NCBI GenBank assembly: GCA_029938465.1
Contig: JAOZUW010000015.1
Coordinates: forward strand, 1 to 34,939
Length of the DNA stretch: 34,939 bases
Source of the DNA: Bacteroidales bacterium
GTDB taxonomy: Bacteria > Bacteroidota > Bacteroidia > Bacteroidales > UBA12170
Direction: 5' to 3'
Shown: positions 27,451 to 34,407 of the stretch, in pieces
Layout of the letters: each line of letters opens with the position of its first letter
How positions within the stretch are numbered: position 1 is the first letter of the stretch
Translations under genes and position numbers: made by a program
The notes under the pieces: generated by a model
Database searches by the model: none
The model's input: only the letters and a program-made list of their open reading frames with translations
What the model was told of the DNA's origin: nothing

Positions 27451-28869
27451 ATGAAAACAATATTCCTTTCTTTAACCTTTATGCTATTTTCTTTCAGCTT
27501 CATATTAGCACAAAGCTTTACTAATATTGAAGCCGGAATCGTTGATATTGATTATAGCTCAGGTGCCTCTTGGGGCGATTATGACAATGACGGCTTATTA
27601 GATCTTGTTATTTGTGGTGAGCCAAATGGAGGTATCGATACTACTTTGTTATACCATAACGATGGAAATGATATTTTTTCTGTTGTCGCAACTGATTTTA
27701 TTAATGTAACTATGGGTGATGTTGAATGGGGCGATTTTAATAATGATGACTATCTGGATTTATTGGTTATCGGATATAGTAATTATGCTTCTGTTATTGC
27801 TTTATATGTAAATAATGGAGATGGTACTTTTAGCGAACAAACCTCAACTGGCTTACCAGGAGTATATATGGGTGATATAGATTTTGCTGATTATAACAAC
27901 GATGGTTTTTTGGATATTGGACTTCTTGGTTTTGATAATAATTATGTATTCATTAGCAAAATATTCGAAAACAACCAGAATTTAAGCTTTTCCGAAGTCA
28001 GTGGTTTAAATTTAGAAGGCATGAACTTTGGTAAAATAAAATGGGGCGATTATAATGGGGATGGATATGCCGACTTTGTAATGAATGGCTTTGGTGATAT
28101 CGATTTCGTAACAGAGCTATGGAAAAATAATGGTGATGGTACTTTCTCTGAAGCAACTAATGTTACCCTACATCAAGGATGGTTAGGCGATATGGCTTGG
28201 GGCGATTATAATAATGATGGGGATTTGGATTTAGTGATATCCGGAACTGGAGGCGATGGCAGCCAGCGATATACACTAATCTATACCAATAATGGTGATG
28301 GCAGTTTTACTGAGGAAGGTGGAATGTTCCTAACACCAGTTTCTCATAGCTCATTGGAATGGGCTGACTTTGATGGCGATGACGATCTTGATTTGTTTAT
28401 TTCAGGTACTATTGATGCAATGGCAACCGGTAATTATGTTGGGGAAATTCGATATAATAACGATGGGAATTTCTCTCAAACTGAGGATATTCTTGGATCT
28501 TATTGGGGTGATTGTAGGGTAGCTGATTATGACAATAGTGGTTACCCCGATATCTTTATTTGTGGATACGATGTAACTGAGAATGGTGTAGCAGAAATCT
28601 TTAAAAATGACAGAGTCCTTTCTGTTCATTCTATTGAACTAGGAGCTGTTCAAATTGGACCTATCCCCGCAAAAGAGGCTATCCATGTTTCAAGTGAACA
28701 AATTATTTTAACTTATCATATCTATAAACTTTCAGGAAAAGAAATAATCAATCGAAAAGTTAATTCTAAAGATTTTACTATTGATGTAAAAAGTCTTACA
28801 ACTGGAATCTATTTATTGAAGTTAAGCTCCGAAAAAGGAGAAGAAACACAAAAAATTACAGTGCTTTAA
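27451..28869 (+). CDS. Secreted VCBS/FG-GAP repeat protein with T9SS type A sorting domain
   Basis: 472 residues. A signal peptide (about 1-20, MKTIFLSLTFMLFSFSFILA) is followed by about seven FG-GAP/VCBS-like repeats carrying WGDYDNDGLLDL, WGDFNNDDYLDL, FADYNNDGFLDI, WGDYNGDGYADF, WGDYNNDGDLDL, WADFDGDDDLDL and VADYDNSGYPDI; the Asp/Asn-rich DxDxDG loops are calcium-binding type. The last 75 residues or so (IGPIPAKEAIHVSS, YHIYKLSGKEI, LTTGIYLLKLSS) form a T9SS type A C-terminal sorting domain. The protein should fold as a beta-propeller and be secreted or surface-attached; its target is unknown. It is flanked by two hairpins with the same stem core. Confidence 0.9.
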   Translation: MKTIFLSLTFMLFSFSFILAQSFTNIEAGIVDIDYSSGASWGDYDNDGLLDLVICGEPNGGIDTTLLYHNDGNDIFSVVATDFINVTMGDVEWGDFNNDDYLDLLVIGYSNYASVIALYVNNGDGTFSEQTSTGLPGVYMGDIDFADYNNDGFLDIGLLGFDNNYVFISKIFENNQNLSFSEVSGLNLEGMNFGKIKWGDYNGDGYADFVMNGFGDIDFVTELWKNNGDGTFSEATNVTLHQGWLGDMAWGDYNNDGDLDLVISGTGGDGSQRYTLIYTNNGDGSFTEEGGMFLTPVSHSSLEWADFDGDDDLDLFISGTIDAMATGNYVGEIRYNNDGNFSQTEDILGSYWGDCRVADYDNSGYPDIFICGYDVTENGVAEIFKNDRVLSVHSIELGAVQIGPIPAKEAIHVSSEQIILTYHIYKLSGKEIINRKVNSKDFTIDVKSLTTGIYLLKLSSEKGEETQKITVL

Positions 28870-28878
28870 ACAATATCC

Positions 28879-28913
28879 AACAATCCGCTAAGGTTTAATC
28901 TTAGCGGATTGTT
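28879..28913. terminator. Bidirectional hairpin between convergent genes (CCGCTAAG stem)
   Basis: AACAATCCGCTAAG (28879-28892), 7-nt loop GTTTAAT, CTTAGCGGATTGTT (28900-28913): a perfect 14-bp stem. It lies 10 bp after the VCBS stop and includes two bases of the stop codon of the convergent gene at 28912. No long T-run follows on either strand, so it may act as a terminator or mRNA 3' end stabiliser. Confidence 0.7.
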
Positions 28914-29538
28914 ACAATTTATAATTAAACCCAAATCTGATAACAGGTGCACCACTAATGAGGTTTTCTACTTTATCTGAAGGATTTTTATTAGAATAAT
29001 TTCCATCAATAGTATAGGAACGTTCAACAAATTTTAAAGTGCCTCCAAAGTCTAAAACCAATTCCCACTTATTACTAGTCCCCATCATTATATGACTACT
29101 ATACATCAGTGAAATATTATGATATTTTTCAGTAAATTCTTGGTAAGGCTCTTGTGATGAACCGCCATGCTTTCCTTCATCCCTAATATAATTACCCGAA
29201 CTTAATCGTTGATATTCAATGGTATATTGGCTCCATCGATTGGCTTTCTTTTTGGACTTACCTTTAAAAAACATGCTCACCCCAAATCCTTTTTGGTTTA
29301 AGCCTATTATCAAATACTCCACAGGAACAATACCGCCCTGATCCATAAATAACTCATCAGCAAAAGCAATGTAATAGGAAACTCCTATACCCATCTTACC
29401 AGATTCTGACAGACTGATTAAACTATTCACATGAACTTCATGCATTGTTTTGGCGCCAATCTGAAATTCCAGTTTTTGAGCATTTCCATAGCTCAAAGCC
29501 ATAAATAATGCCATTAAAAGAAATAGAACTTTTTTCAT
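28912..29538 (-). CDS. Small secreted, probable outer-membrane beta-barrel protein
   Basis: 208 residues from the ATG at 29538 (MKKVLFLLMALFMALSYGNAQK), chosen because it gives an ideal signal peptide; the longer frame to 29661 runs into the preceding gene. The mature protein has alternating amphipathic beta strands (MGIGVSYYIAFAD; KGFGVSMFFKGKS; YTIEYQRLSS; WELVLDFGGTLKFVERSY) and ends APVIRFGFNYKL, like a small barrel. No named family was recognised. It follows the SMP-30-like gene after 28 bp and is probably co-transcribed. A calcium- or sugar-related partner role is not supported by any motif. Confidence 0.65.
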   Translation of the reverse strand: MKKVLFLLMALFMALSYGNAQKLEFQIGAKTMHEVHVNSLISLSESGKMGIGVSYYIAFADELFMDQGGIVPVEYLIIGLNQKGFGVSMFFKGKSKKKANRWSQYTIEYQRLSSGNYIRDEGKHGGSSQEPYQEFTEKYHNISLMYSSHIMMGTSNKWELVLDFGGTLKFVERSYTIDGNYSNKNPSDKVENLISGAPVIRFGFNYKL

Positions 29539-29566
29539 TATTAAAAATAATTTAGATGCATCATTT

Positions 29567-30448
29567 CTAAAAACCTTTACCTGAGAACTCCGAAAAGAAG
29601 CTTTCAAAACAACCTCTATCTGACACCGTAACAAAACATTGTTTATTATCGATACCTCCAAAAGTGATATTAGAAGGGTTCTTACCTTTAAGTAAGATCT
29701 CTCTTATCATTTTTCCTTGCGGAGACATAACAACTACACTAGCTTTACCATAACGGCATACATATAAATTTCCTTTTATATCGCAACGCATACCATCTAA
29801 TCCAAAATTTGGAAATGAAGCAAATAGCGTCTTATTTTTCAGGCTTCCATCATCTTGAATATCATAAACCCATATTTTTCTTTGAACTGACTCGTTAACA
29901 TAGAGTTTATCACCATTTGGACTTACTTCTATACCATTTGTAGTACCCATATCTTTCTCCAAAAGAATACAAGTATCCTCCTTAATCATCCAGAGATTTC
30001 CGGTATTATTCTCCCAGTCAGGGTCGCTAGCATATAATAATCCATTAGATGAAATGGCAATATCATTAGGTTGATTCATTGTAGAATCATGAGCATAAAC
30101 AGTAGCTTCAGTAGAGCCCTTTCTTATAATAAGAATATTATGGTTTGTATAATCCGCAATATACATATTGTCGGCCTTATCGAAACGAATTCCATTGCCA
30201 ATGCTCCCAGAGGGCAGAGTGGCAAATAAAGAAACCTGAGCTATCTTATTAACTATTCCGATAGTACCTTCTTTAGCGAAATTTACTGCATATAAATTTC
30301 CTTTGCTATCTACAGCAGGCCCTTCTATTCCATTAGTAAAAAGCCCTTCTTCAGTAAAAACATAGCTAGTATAAGCTTTATTCTTGCAAGAAAATAATGT
30401 ACCAAATATTAAAATGAAGATGAAATACTTTTTTATTATTTTAATCAT
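29567..30448 (-). CDS. SMP-30/gluconolactonase-like beta-propeller lipoprotein
   Basis: 293 residues from the ATG at 30448 (MIKIIKKYFIFILIFGTLFSCKNK), with a lipoprotein signal ending LFSC and acyl-Cys21; an alternative TTG at 30460 is less likely. The body shows propeller blades with SMP-30/LRE features: GIEGPAVDSKGNLYAVNF, GNGIRFDKADNMYIADY, QPNDIAISSNGLLYASDP, TNGIEVSPNGDKLYVNES and DGMRCDIKGNLYVCRYG, where Glu, Asn and Asp occupy usual metal-site positions. Family members hydrolyse sugar lactones or related esters; this one would be anchored in the envelope. Enzyme activity is inferred. It has its own good promoter and leads into the small barrel gene. Confidence 0.82.
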   Translation of the reverse strand: MIKIIKKYFIFILIFGTLFSCKNKAYTSYVFTEEGLFTNGIEGPAVDSKGNLYAVNFAKEGTIGIVNKIAQVSLFATLPSGSIGNGIRFDKADNMYIADYTNHNILIIRKGSTEATVYAHDSTMNQPNDIAISSNGLLYASDPDWENNTGNLWMIKEDTCILLEKDMGTTNGIEVSPNGDKLYVNESVQRKIWVYDIQDDGSLKNKTLFASFPNFGLDGMRCDIKGNLYVCRYGKASVVVMSPQGKMIREILLKGKNPSNITFGGIDNKQCFVTVSDRGCFESFFSEFSGKGF

Positions 30449-30505
30449 AATAATGAGCAATTAAATAAATCCATCCTCCTAATGTAAACACTTTTAAGAC
30501 CATTG

Positions 30506-30584: not shown

Positions 30585-32459
30585 TTACCTCTTAAACACC
30601 AACTCATTCACTGCATTAGCATGCCAATCAATCATCATTTTTCTAAATATTTCATATTCCTGATGATCTAAAAATAGTTCAAAGCTTTTTCCTTCTTTCG
30701 ACTCCACATTCATGGGCGATTTATTCGTTTTCTTCATCACTCTTGAAGAATATATTTTCAAATGCTTTACGACTACTAATCTCCCATTTTTTATGCCCAT
30801 ATCAATGGTCATTTCTCCAAAACTCTCTTTATAGCTTTTATGTATCTCCTTCCCTACCCACATCACACTTTTGGGTAAAGTAATATGATATTCATACTTT
30901 TCATCAAGAGCTGGTACAACTAGAGGGAAATCTCTATCCGTTGGCAAAATATCAAAATGACTATGGGCTATACCGTTCTTAAATTCAGGTATATTGAAAA
31001 AATAATAGTTTTCTTGCTGGTCTATTTTTGCACTATCCTTAATAGGCAGCGAGAATTTTGCTGTTTCATCATTTCCATAATTTACTTGTATTTCTTTATC
31101 CTCTGCTACCTTTAGAGCATTTGAAAAATAATTGACAATTTTCTGTGTATCCTGAGTTAAAACAAAATCATCGTAAAAACCTCCATAAAGTTTAACAGTG
31201 AAATCTCCAAAAATCTGATTTCCAGGATCAACTGTTAATTTAGCCAACACATTAACATGAGATGCTTCTTGCTTAGGATGCAACACCACTTCTTGTCCGT
31301 CAAACAAACTAATAACTCTAGTATTTGCATATTCCCATTCTAAAGATTTTTTGTTTTTTTGTATGGCTGAGAGAATAACAGGCTTAAAATCTTTAGTGGA
31401 AACAAGAACTCCAAAATGGGTAAAGTCATCAAAAGAAACCACCTGTGGATCCCAGAGTTTATCAGGCATAAATCCAACAATTTTTGCTTTTAGATCTGCT
31501 AACACACAAATTTGATATAATAGATTGGTTTTCTCTAACTCATTTCCAACATTATTATTCCATACTAAAACTGGATTTTGCACCTTATAATTACTCCATT
31601 TTAAAGGATTGTGTTTAGATGTGATATTATCTACAACAACTGCTTGCATAGCGCGAACGGCATCCCATTCATTGTTTGTCTCACTTGTTGTTTCATGAAT
31701 TAAATTCATGAATTGAGGTCTTTTCCTTGCTGAAAAAACTTCAGCTGAGGTCCACTTTTCCAGAGCTGTTTTCGCATCCGGGAAAGTAGAAAATTTAATG
31801 GTTGGTGATGTCACATATGAAGACGGTGCAGACGTCTCATAGGCCCTAGCCGAAACATTAGTAAAATGCCAGTTATATGTTGCATATTTATTATTGGTAT
31901 TCATCTTTGGCTTTCCATCGAAATTCATCACAGTAAACTCAAAAGCTCTACGTGCTGGTACTTGTATTTGAACTTCATAATCTTCAACAGGTACATCTTC
32001 TGTAATAATTGCTGTCCCCATCAGTTCATGTATATTATTAAGTTTGGAAATAATACTATACTCTAAAAATATAGTAGCTCCAACTTCTAAAGCAGTATGC
32101 GTAACAACCATCTCTACCATTTTATTAAAAGCAGGATAATTAGCAGCAGCCCGTGGTAATACTTTATTAAAAGCATTTTCGGGTGTTTCTACTTTTTTCC
32201 CATCAGCCATAATAGTATATGATTTATGGATTATTAATTCCTGATAATCAGGATTATAAACAATAAATGTTTCTCCAAACATACGGTTAAAACTATATGG
32301 AGTTAAATATTTTAACTCTTTATAATACTTATACTCAATGCTCCCATCGGTATGTAAAATATATTCTTTTTTTATCTTTTTGAAAACGGCATCAGTATCG
32401 GAAGCAAAAGTATAAGCGACCATTAAAAGACTGATAAATAATAATGTATATTTCTTCAT
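30585..32459 (-). CDS. DUF3857 protein with a degenerate transglutaminase-like domain
   Basis: 624 residues with a signal peptide (1-19). Residues about 40-215 match DUF3857 (HKSYTIMADGKKVETPENAF; EVGATIFLEYSI). A transglutaminase-like core follows, but compared by eye with the neighbouring paralogue the catalytic Cys position is Glu307 (VGNELEKTNLL versus CGVCKDKASLL) and the Asp position is Ser364; the His remains (DDFTHFGV, His348). The C-terminal third is beta-rich. It is therefore probably not an active transglutaminase or protease but a binding or partner protein. It lies 4 bp after the active-looking paralogue, in one operon, and is probably periplasmic. Confidence 0.82.
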   Translation of the reverse strand: MKKYTLLFISLLMVAYTFASDTDAVFKKIKKEYILHTDGSIEYKYYKELKYLTPYSFNRMFGETFIVYNPDYQELIIHKSYTIMADGKKVETPENAFNKVLPRAAANYPAFNKMVEMVVTHTALEVGATIFLEYSIISKLNNIHELMGTAIITEDVPVEDYEVQIQVPARRAFEFTVMNFDGKPKMNTNNKYATYNWHFTNVSARAYETSAPSSYVTSPTIKFSTFPDAKTALEKWTSAEVFSARKRPQFMNLIHETTSETNNEWDAVRAMQAVVVDNITSKHNPLKWSNYKVQNPVLVWNNNVGNELEKTNLLYQICVLADLKAKIVGFMPDKLWDPQVVSFDDFTHFGVLVSTKDFKPVILSAIQKNKKSLEWEYANTRVISLFDGQEVVLHPKQEASHVNVLAKLTVDPGNQIFGDFTVKLYGGFYDDFVLTQDTQKIVNYFSNALKVAEDKEIQVNYGNDETAKFSLPIKDSAKIDQQENYYFFNIPEFKNGIAHSHFDILPTDRDFPLVVPALDEKYEYHITLPKSVMWVGKEIHKSYKESFGEMTIDMGIKNGRLVVVKHLKIYSSRVMKKTNKSPMNVESKEGKSFELFLDHQEYEIFRKMMIDWHANAVNELVFKR

Positions 32460-32463
32460 TTTT

Positions 32464-34407
32464 CTATTTTTTCAAGATTATCTTTTGTGTTTGCATTTCT
32501 TTTTGGTTTAAAACAGCTTGTCGGAAAACTGGCCAATCATCAGCTTCATAAACCCTTTTTCCATAGCTGGCAAATTGAGTAAAAGTAAGCTTCTGACTCT
32601 CCAAAGTATATGCGGCTTTATAATTTACATATTCCGAATTCACTTCATCAACCACAGGTAATGCAATCGAGCTTTTATATTCAGGCAATTCCACTACTTC
32701 TTCAATTTCCAACAAACGAGAACAACGATCCTTAAAACCAAATTCTTTTGTTTCAGAAGAAGTATTTAAATACAAATGCGACATAGCTCTCTTAAATACT
32801 CCTTTCGCCAAAGGTGGAATAAAAATTATTTCTTCATTGGTTACTAGTGCATAATTAGGGATAGTATAATGATAGGTGATAGAAACTGGCTGTTCCAAAT
32901 ATTTATCGTTGTCAGTATGAATAACCTCTGTTATTTGAGCTGCTGGATCTAACCTTAATAATTCCTTTTCCAAATTCTTTTTCCATTCGGTGCGTACGCT
33001 ATATTTAAATACACCTCTTACTGCAGCATCTGATTGCCCTTCGGCAGTAATGGTAAAAGAACCATTTAAGTTTCCTTTCTCATCAATTTTCGATTTACCT
33101 GTCATTCTTACATAATGATTCTCCGGAGCTGAAATAGGTGTGTAATTTAAATCAGAGCCCTCAGGTAAACCCATCAAATAACCCTGTTGTTGTTCTGCAC
33201 TCGACCATAATTCTCTTACACCTGGCACCCAGGTTGGATCCAAGAGCTTGTATTCACCACTTCTCATTATCACTACTGTAATAGAATGGTTAAACTGATC
33301 TGCTGGAATATCTTCAATACGTTGTCCAGCCATAGTCATGGCAGCATAGGACTCAAAACCAGCTGCACGCAACATGGCTATTAACAAGCTTGCTTTATCT
33401 TTACAAACACCACAGCGGTCGGTAAAATTCATCTCACAATTATGTAGAGTATAACCTTCACCAGGCCCCATGGAAATACCAGAATAACGCATATTATCAG
33501 CTACCCAATGGGTTAGAATAGAGATACTATCTAATTCCGTCTTGGCATCTTTAATTAAATCATTTACAAATATTTTCACTTCTTCGGTAGGAACAAAAGC
33601 GCCATAATCTTCGTTTACCTTGTAAAACCATTTTCCTTTGGCATACCAATCAGGGCTGGTAGACATCAACAATTTGGTATTTACATTGTTTTTACTCACC
33701 ATATTTGACTCTGATTTAACAGGCTCGATATCTTTTTTACTAAAGGTATAGTATTTATATTTTGCATCTTGCTTTTCACTAATAGCAGTCATTTCTCCGT
33801 GATACACTTCAAAACGTAAATTTTTATCTGCCGGAGTTTGTAACTGATACACCTTTTCTAAAATAGGATGAGAACTCCAAAAAGGAACGATATCATAAAA
33901 ATGCCCTCGCATAGGTGGAATATATTTATCTTCTTCATCACCTAATAAAGCGTAGGTATAACCTTTCTTAAAAGAAACAACTTCAACAGCATCTCCAGGT
34001 TCCAAGCGACCCACTTCTATCATTTTTTCTCTGGCACCCCAGTATATAGCTCGTGCCGGAGCAGCGTAATCCATCACTGGATTATCTATTAAAAGGATAT
34101 CTCCATTAGCTTTATAAACTACCACTCTTTGTATTTCTACATAAGCCGATAAGGGATCATAGCCTAATTTAACGATACGCAAACTTTTTGCACCTTTAGC
34201 AGTAAGCACTTTAGTTAATTTATGCATTTGATAATAACTTAAGCCACTACTCTGCATTTTAACACTGGTACTATCAAAAATATCTACAATATCCGATTTA
34301 GGAAATGCTTTGGCATCACCAGCCTTTGAAATAAGCTCCTGGTAGTTTTGTGCGTTTGCCCAAAATCCAATGATAAGAAACCAAAGAAGCATTTTTTGTT
34401 TTTTCAT
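32464..34407 (-). CDS. DUF3857 / transglutaminase-like periplasmic protein (intact triad)
   Basis: 647 residues with a signal peptide (MKKQKMLLWFLIIGFWANAQ, 1-20). An N-terminal DUF3857 domain (about 50-220: KLGYDPLSAYVEIQRVVVYK; LEPGDAVEVVSFKKGY) is followed by a transglutaminase-like core with the full Cys-His-Asp triad: Cys335 (RCGVCKDKASLL), His374 (DQFNHSITV) and Asp390 (YKLLDPTW). The C-terminal third is beta-rich. Such proteins are common in Bacteroidota; substrates are unknown, and either proteolysis or cross-linking is possible. It is the first gene of the operon with the degenerate paralogue. No confident promoter was found in the 192 bp upstream. Confidence 0.88.
   Translation of the reverse strand: MKKQKMLLWFLIIGFWANAQNYQELISKAGDAKAFPKSDIVDIFDSTSVKMQSSGLSYYQMHKLTKVLTAKGAKSLRIVKLGYDPLSAYVEIQRVVVYKANGDILLIDNPVMDYAAPARAIYWGAREKMIEVGRLEPGDAVEVVSFKKGYTYALLGDEEDKYIPPMRGHFYDIVPFWSSHPILEKVYQLQTPADKNLRFEVYHGEMTAISEKQDAKYKYYTFSKKDIEPVKSESNMVSKNNVNTKLLMSTSPDWYAKGKWFYKVNEDYGAFVPTEEVKIFVNDLIKDAKTELDSISILTHWVADNMRYSGISMGPGEGYTLHNCEMNFTDRCGVCKDKASLLIAMLRAAGFESYAAMTMAGQRIEDIPADQFNHSITVVIMRSGEYKLLDPTWVPGVRELWSSAEQQQGYLMGLPEGSDLNYTPISAPENHYVRMTGKSKIDEKGNLNGSFTITAEGQSDAAVRGVFKYSVRTEWKKNLEKELLRLDPAAQITEVIHTDNDKYLEQPVSITYHYTIPNYALVTNEEIIFIPPLAKGVFKRAMSHLYLNTSSETKEFGFKDRCSRLLEIEEVVELPEYKSSIALPVVDEVNSEYVNYKAAYTLESQKLTFTQFASYGKRVYEADDWPVFRQAVLNQKEMQTQKIILKK

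Follow-up and report, generated by a model that had tools for sequence, protein, structure and literature searches.

Why should a bacterium keep, directly downstream of a gene for a transglutaminase-like enzyme, a second gene for a protein of the same build that has lost its catalytic residues? The question is raised by the stretch of DNA analysed here (the window; 34,939 nucleotides, contig JAOZUW010000015.1 of the Bacteroidales assembly GCA_029938465.1, lineage UBA12170), in which two such genes follow each other on the minus strand. We call the upstream, active member (647 amino acids) A and the downstream, inactive member (624 amino acids) D. A first-pass annotation had seen in them an enzyme/pseudoenzyme pair of common layout, encoded 4 bp apart and perhaps joined in a complex. 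The pairing of an enzyme with a pseudoenzyme is strongly supported by our analysis, since the nucleophilic cysteine is missing from every D relative and the two genes are conserved together. We propose, at a probability of about 0.6, that A and D form a two-gene unit encoding an exported heteromeric enzyme, in which D is a pseudoenzyme subunit needed by A, as in the TldD/TldE system.

The relation between the two proteins is barely visible to BLASTP (E 0.088, 19% identity over 282 positions). When the families are aligned profile to profile (E 4.7e-36, probability 99.9), Cys335, His374 and Asp390 of A fall opposite Glu307, His348 and Ser364 of D, which is where the first-pass annotation had placed them. 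In a first set of 35 A and 32 D sequences, all 35 A had Cys, His and Asp, and all 32 D were without the cysteine at the nucleophile position. The set was then enlarged to distinct sequences selected with the families' own profiles (A longer than 600 amino acids and above 400 bits; D longer than 400 amino acids and above 200 bits), shorter or weaker sequences being left out. In this enlarged set the triad is kept in 106/106 A relatives, and the loss of the cysteine is equally consistent, with Cys at the nucleophile position in 0/97 D relatives. That position is occupied by 18 different residues (Pro in 21 sequences, Ala in 19, Glu in 13, Gln in 10, Ser in 7, and 13 other residues besides). At the Asp position, 74 of the 97 have Ser and two have Asp; at the His position, four have His and five have gaps. 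The earlier statement that D keeps His348 is thus true of the window's protein and not of its family, and we regard this histidine as incidental, because it recurs in so few relatives and the nearest full-length one (44% identical) has Gln there. Just past the former nucleophile, D keeps an acidic residue at position 309 (97/97) followed by Lys310 (86/97), a pair that corresponds to Asp337-Lys338 of A.

The sole cysteine of the window's D, Cys318, lies 11 residues past Glu307 along the same helix. A cysteine three residues before the nucleophile position is present in 40/97 D relatives and matches a second, non-catalytic cysteine of A, Cys332, which is kept in 102/106 A relatives; the window's D has Val at the matching position. 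Among 94 paired loci, this cysteine (Cys332 of A, Cys304 of D) is found in both partners in 39, in A only in 51, in D only in one and in neither in three. It is carried by many of the shortened D proteins (about 470–525 amino acids; for example L147, L151 and L155; here and below, L and G numbers are our handles for loci and genomes), which come mostly from rumen or gut genomes and are without the stretch between the core and DUF3858. A shift of the active site of D to this earlier cysteine was considered and rejected, because D has neither a conserved His nor a conserved Asp to go with it.

Domain searches and predicted structures agree with this picture. DUF3857 (PF12969, curated cut-off 24.6 bits), a family whose function the Pfam entry gives as unknown, is matched by both proteins (A: 110.9 bits, E 9.2e-32; D: 107.2 bits, E 1.3e-30), and these two are the only DUF3857 matches found in the source genome, a draft of 3.07 Mb that is 94% complete. 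Transglut_core (PF01841, cut-off 23 bits) is matched by A with 36.1 bits, whereas D remains below the cut-off with 12.6 bits (E 0.17), although its fold is similar. Models were built from alignments of 35 sequences for A and 30 for D and reached a predicted local distance difference test (pLDDT) score of 87.1 and a predicted template modelling (pTM) score of 0.84 for A, and 87.0 and 0.83 for D. Both match PDB entry 3kd4 over most of their length (A: Z 23.6, root-mean-square deviation (rmsd) 4.2, 491 residues; D: Z 38.4, rmsd 4.2, 503 residues), and the shared layout of A and D therefore holds. A helix begins at Glu307 in the D model; the corresponding helix of the A model, carrying Cys335, begins at residue 334. 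The core of D resembles PNGase (3esw; Z 11.2, rmsd 3.2, 150 residues), LapG (4fgq; Z 10.5, rmsd 3.9, 135 residues) and transglutaminase 3 (1l9m; Z 10.3, rmsd 3.5, 151 residues), so that its transglutaminase fold appears to have survived the loss of the triad. The core of A resembles 3isr (Z 9.6, rmsd 3.4, 127 residues). The DUF3857 regions of A and D have a fold like that of the N-terminal domain of M1 aminopeptidases and of OST1/ribophorin I (Z about 9–11 over about 160–175 residues), a likeness of fold only, which does not imply a zinc site or glycosyl transfer. To our knowledge, no solved transglutaminase-like thiol enzyme combines an N-terminal DUF3857 domain with an inactive tandem paralogue.

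The entry 3kd4 itself, BDI_1141 of Parabacteroides distasonis, was deposited as a 'putative protease'. It matches D in sequence (phmmer E 2.9e-47) and, along the whole length, in fold, and it has Pro at the Cys position when aligned to D; its alignment to A, which is weak (E 0.21), gives Pro there as well. Still closer to 3kd4 are D-type proteins of two other genomes (G105, E 8e-121; G106, E 6e-102), whose genes come 153 bp and 17 bp, respectively, after an A gene of the same orientation. Judged by these alignments, 3kd4 is a D orthologue and would be a non-catalytic, dead subunit without an aligned cysteine, shorter than the window's D (506 versus 624 residues) and called a protease by its depositors despite the missing nucleophile.

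We then asked how faithfully the two genes stay together. Among genomes of named species, the best 80 of at least 553 A relatives were examined for a neighbouring D, and in 77/80 of these loci a D gene is found downstream in the same orientation as A. It is within 350 bp of A in 76; in the 77th (L174), a D fragment begins 1.1 kb from A and is cut by the contig end. Of the three unlinked loci, one is at a contig edge and two show no D over about 10 kb; in each of the three genomes D is present elsewhere, and D is retained though not adjoining A in G020, G511 and G512. Among 119 genomes of the order, a sample that partly overlaps the named loci (the distinct-sequence counts given above exclude identical proteins), D was found in 34, all of which also have A. 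A of the window's family was found in 35, 34 of them with D, and the count for A rises to 37 if the diverged pairs of G012 and G053 are included. A 35th match to D (G030) is weak and sits in a tetratricopeptide repeat (TPR) protein, and the A-only genome (G047) has a 97-residue match to the C-terminus of D on another contig. In G067, the D gene (L038:7224-9096) is split into two overlapping frames of 279 and 355 amino acids, either by a frameshift or by an assembly error. Within 395 genomes of the phylum, the two genomes with a strong match to A, the window's own and G105, are also the two with a strong match to D; one further, weak match to another protein came up in each search. A second sampled genome of the window's genus has neither A nor D, and it therefore seems that the two genes are acquired or lost together.

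The surroundings of the pair were compared with genes called by a simple longest-frame rule. When the 1031 open reading frames (ORFs) so obtained were clustered, A and D included, no cluster other than A and D recurred in more than 13 of 81 loci; for this reason the pair looks like a unit of its own, and as a clue to function the neighbourhood yielded nothing further. Among openly licensed papers we found no description of an A/D pair; a DUF3857 gene beside lolA in Xanthomonas appears in excerpts of one (PMC6341742).

The window pair exemplifies an arrangement that is met repeatedly across the sampled phylum, where DUF3857 genes are present in at least 82 of 198 Bacteroidota genomes. For classification we took the window, 80 regions from the order sample and 80 from the phylum sample, picked blind to catalytic residues among the matches listed, part of which were fetched. 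The 312 ORFs found were reduced to 301 by removing duplicates and ORFs shorter than 380 amino acids, and were labelled active if they had Cys, His and Asp, Glu or Asn; the His and Asp columns are approximate for diverged members, while for shared sequences the Cys column was in agreement with the alignments made before. By this label 146 are active and 155 are not, one of the latter retaining Cys with Tyr in place of His. When a cluster is defined as two or more neighbours on one strand that are within 700 bp, 118/118 tandem clusters have a single member, no more and no fewer, in which the triad is intact, and the median gap between neighbouring genes is 6 bp (135 pairs). The window's family accounts for 29 of the clusters, with the active gene first in every one. 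The other 89 contain one (73 clusters), two (15) or three (1) inactive members, and the active gene opens 36 of them and closes 53. With labels shuffled among these 89, one-active clusters numbered 42.8 on average and at most 62 in 5000 shuffles, a comparison that still contains shared descent. That every sampled cluster has one intact copy, and never more or fewer, makes it probable that the enzyme depends on its inactive partner. Among the inactive-labelled members of other clades, 15/124 have Ser-His-Asp and, judged by these residues, could act via serine.

The loci examined also contained 20 Cys-less genes that stand singly, of which two are in the window's family. The other 18 belong to 18 genomes. 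In six of these the region fetched includes an active member as well; a search of the remaining 12 found an active DUF3857 gene in eight. The generalisation that dead members never occur alone is thus wrong outside the window's family. Those lacking a detected partner include L244 (G147), L251 (G199) and L252 (G269), all in genomes that are 98–100% complete. In G308, one active and one Cys-less member (L268 and L269) lie on separate contigs, an unlinked pair outside the window's family. Five loci of the order sample (L094–L098, in G030, G086, G012, G051 and G064) have ORFs of about 1250 amino acids whose C-terminal half contains an active DUF3857-transglutaminase (5/5). A natural fusion of A with D was considered for them and rejected, for in the three ORFs scanned with Pfam the preceding part is TPR and not a dead partner; L094–L098 represent a distinct architecture within the family, made up of a single gene.

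Is D, then, maintained by selection, and in which part? The ratio of non-synonymous to synonymous substitution rates (dN/dS) was estimated from 21 non-overlapping close pairs, of which 17 yielded a value for D and 16 a value for A. It ranges from 0.07 to 0.28 for D and from 0.06 to 0.22 for A, and although single values are rough because several dS values exceed 1, D is under purifying selection. The distribution of conservation differs between the proteins. Information per column amounts to 2.89 bits in the DUF3857 domain of A and to 3.68 bits in its core, whereas in D it is 2.43 bits in DUF3857 (about 3.0 in residues 61–140), 1.73 in the core and 0.92 beyond it. Evolution thus protects the DUF3857 domain of D most, rather than the former active site.

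As to the history of the two forms, a quick tree of 69 rows, with long branches, requires two changes of the active/inactive label. Forcing its 34 inactive rows into one clade gave a P value of 0.048 in the approximately unbiased test (p-AU), at the edge of rejection, and one and two origins are therefore indistinguishable; a single origin of all inactive members, which we had considered, was not adopted. Distances among active members correlate with those among their inactive partners (r 0.84 over 102 pairs; 0.82 in the window's family and 0.93 in the rest). These results fit one or two ancient duplications, after which the two forms diversified together. The correlation alone is not proof of contact, because linked genes share the history of their species.

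Export of the two proteins is suggested by hydrophobic N-terminal runs, recognised with a crude pattern in 98/106 A and 94/97 D relatives, together with the lack of any match to the type IX sorting domain PF18962 in A or D up to E 1. A lipobox-like N-terminus was seen in 5/106 A and 4/97 D relatives. From such sequence patterns only, the most simple destination would be the periplasm.

A Cys-His-Asp triad set in a fold of the transglutaminase type suggests a peptidase or an acyl-transferase, and since the triad of A is invariant, A may be read as the catalytic subunit, a thiol enzyme with one of these two reactions on a substrate that D might help to hold. D would be a pseudoenzyme subunit that arose by an old duplication, lost its nucleophile and was retained for its binding surfaces. 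We infer a physical complex in which D most likely binds A, mainly via the conserved face of DUF3857, and on which A would depend, D either stabilising or activating A or completing its substrate cleft, as TldE does for TldD. The one-active composition of the clusters, the minimal gaps, the co-retention of A and D when apart and the conservation of DUF3857 all fit a needed subunit.

Several observations weigh against D being such a subunit. Its dN/dS is higher than that of A in 15/16 comparisons, which could mean looser constraint, and 29/97 D relatives lack most of residues 420–484 (judged by length, three of these are cut by a contig end). The correlated distances and the co-occurrence are also expected from the shared descent of linked genes. 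Moreover, G147, G199, G269 and the 88%-complete G009 gave no active member at E 1e-15, and a Cys-less member can thus apparently persist without the enzyme.

These four other-lineage genomes would be expected if D were instead a separate non-catalytic binding protein, for instance a substrate receptor or a scaffold in the envelope, that serves the same pathway and forms no stable complex with A. The genomes that keep D away from A and the concentration of its conservation in DUF3857 would suit this equally, but the short gaps and the single active member of every cluster fit a stoichiometric partnership better, and we consider a separate binding protein unlikely, if worth serious attention. 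A more doubtful alternative is that D acts as an inhibitor or a substitute for a pro-domain, holding A inactive until release. A pseudoenzyme of the same fold could occupy the dimer or substrate face of A, and the co-encoding of the two in nearly all named loci would serve that end; matched dosage, however, would also be needed where D is not next to A, and the present data do not separate inhibition from activation. It is improbable to a far greater degree that D is still an enzyme, working by other chemistry or with other residues. The acidic residue 309 with Lys310, the frequent Ser at the Asp position, the cysteine three residues earlier and the Ser-His-Asp members of other clades could all be cited for it, but the nucleophile position is occupied by 18 different residues, no His is conserved, and the core is the very part of D that lost conservation. 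That D is a decaying duplicate without function, as its lost catalytic residues and the split gene in G067 might suggest, is scarcely credible, being contradicted by purifying selection and by its retention beside A.

If D is indeed a needed subunit of A, the nearest demonstrated parallel would be TldD/TldE. According to excerpts of the published account, TldD/TldE is a heterodimeric metalloprotease whose activity requires both proteins, and the structures of the inactive TldE came first and showed no catalytic site that could be recognised (PMC5810440). As far as those excerpts go, it shares with A/D the combination of one active and one inactive paralogue, which in A/D are encoded together; it differs in fold and in its metal chemistry, and its complex has been demonstrated, whereas that of A/D is deduced. 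Vasohibins, members of the transglutaminase-like superfamily with a non-canonical third residue (Cys-His-Ser) and with 3KD4 among their profile matches (excerpts of PMC4866520), keep Cys and His, while the D family keeps neither.

Positions in the window of the A and D genes, their domains and their catalytic or corresponding codons
Feature	Positions	Strand	Basis
A, 647 aa: signal-like N-terminus, DUF3857, transglutaminase core, C-terminal beta domains	32464..34407	-	ORF, Pfam, model
DUF3857 domain of A, residues 55-230	33718..34245	-	Pfam
Transglut_core match of A, residues 281-381, inside best-conserved part of A	33265..33567	-	Pfam, conservation
Codon of catalytic Cys335 of A	33403..33405	-	sequence, conservation
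Codon of catalytic His374 of A	33286..33288	-	sequence, conservation
Codon of catalytic Asp390 of A	33238..33240	-	sequence, conservation
4-bp gap separating A and D frames	32460..32463		ORF list
D, 624 aa: signal-like N-terminus, DUF3857, degenerate transglutaminase core, DUF3858	30585..32459	-	ORF, Pfam, model
DUF3857 domain of D, residues 38-204	31848..32348	-	Pfam
D residues 61-140, best-conserved stretch, proposed contact surface (contact inferred)	32040..32279	-	conservation
Codon of Glu307 of D, Cys position	31539..31541	-	sequence, profile-profile alignment
Codon of His348 of D, His position, kept in 4/97 relatives	31416..31418	-	sequence, profile-profile alignment
Codon of Ser364 of D, Asp position, Ser in 74/97 relatives	31368..31370	-	sequence, profile-profile alignment
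DUF3858 domain of D, residues 485-572	30744..31007	-	Pfam

The table bears out the spacing given by the first-pass annotation, A being followed on the minus strand by the 4-bp gap and then by D. Promoter-like sites around the pair number 21, against 20.3 in shuffled sequence, and terminator-like sites were not found there. Elsewhere in the window, 27451-28869 encodes a protein that has FG-GAP repeats and a sorting domain for type IX secretion (Por_Secre_tail, by Pfam), and the organism therefore probably has a type IX export system. The ORFs 28912-29661 and 29567-30460 are on the same strand and overlap by 95 bp; the real start of the former is probably further in, where an internal Met is followed by a signal-like sequence.

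For tandem DUF3857-transglutaminase clusters in general, we put at roughly even odds a composition rule for Bacteroidota, under which one catalytic subunit would be accompanied by one to three pseudoenzyme subunits, all going back to one or two ancient duplications and having diversified in matched pairs, to give exported heteromeric thiol enzymes across the phylum. If it is true that A needs a specific dead partner, its activity would escape assays in which A is used by itself, and 3kd4, the single solved structure that we found, would have been read as an enzyme though it is a non-catalytic subunit. The more than 100 matched clusters are available for studying how pseudoenzymes diversify alongside their enzymes.

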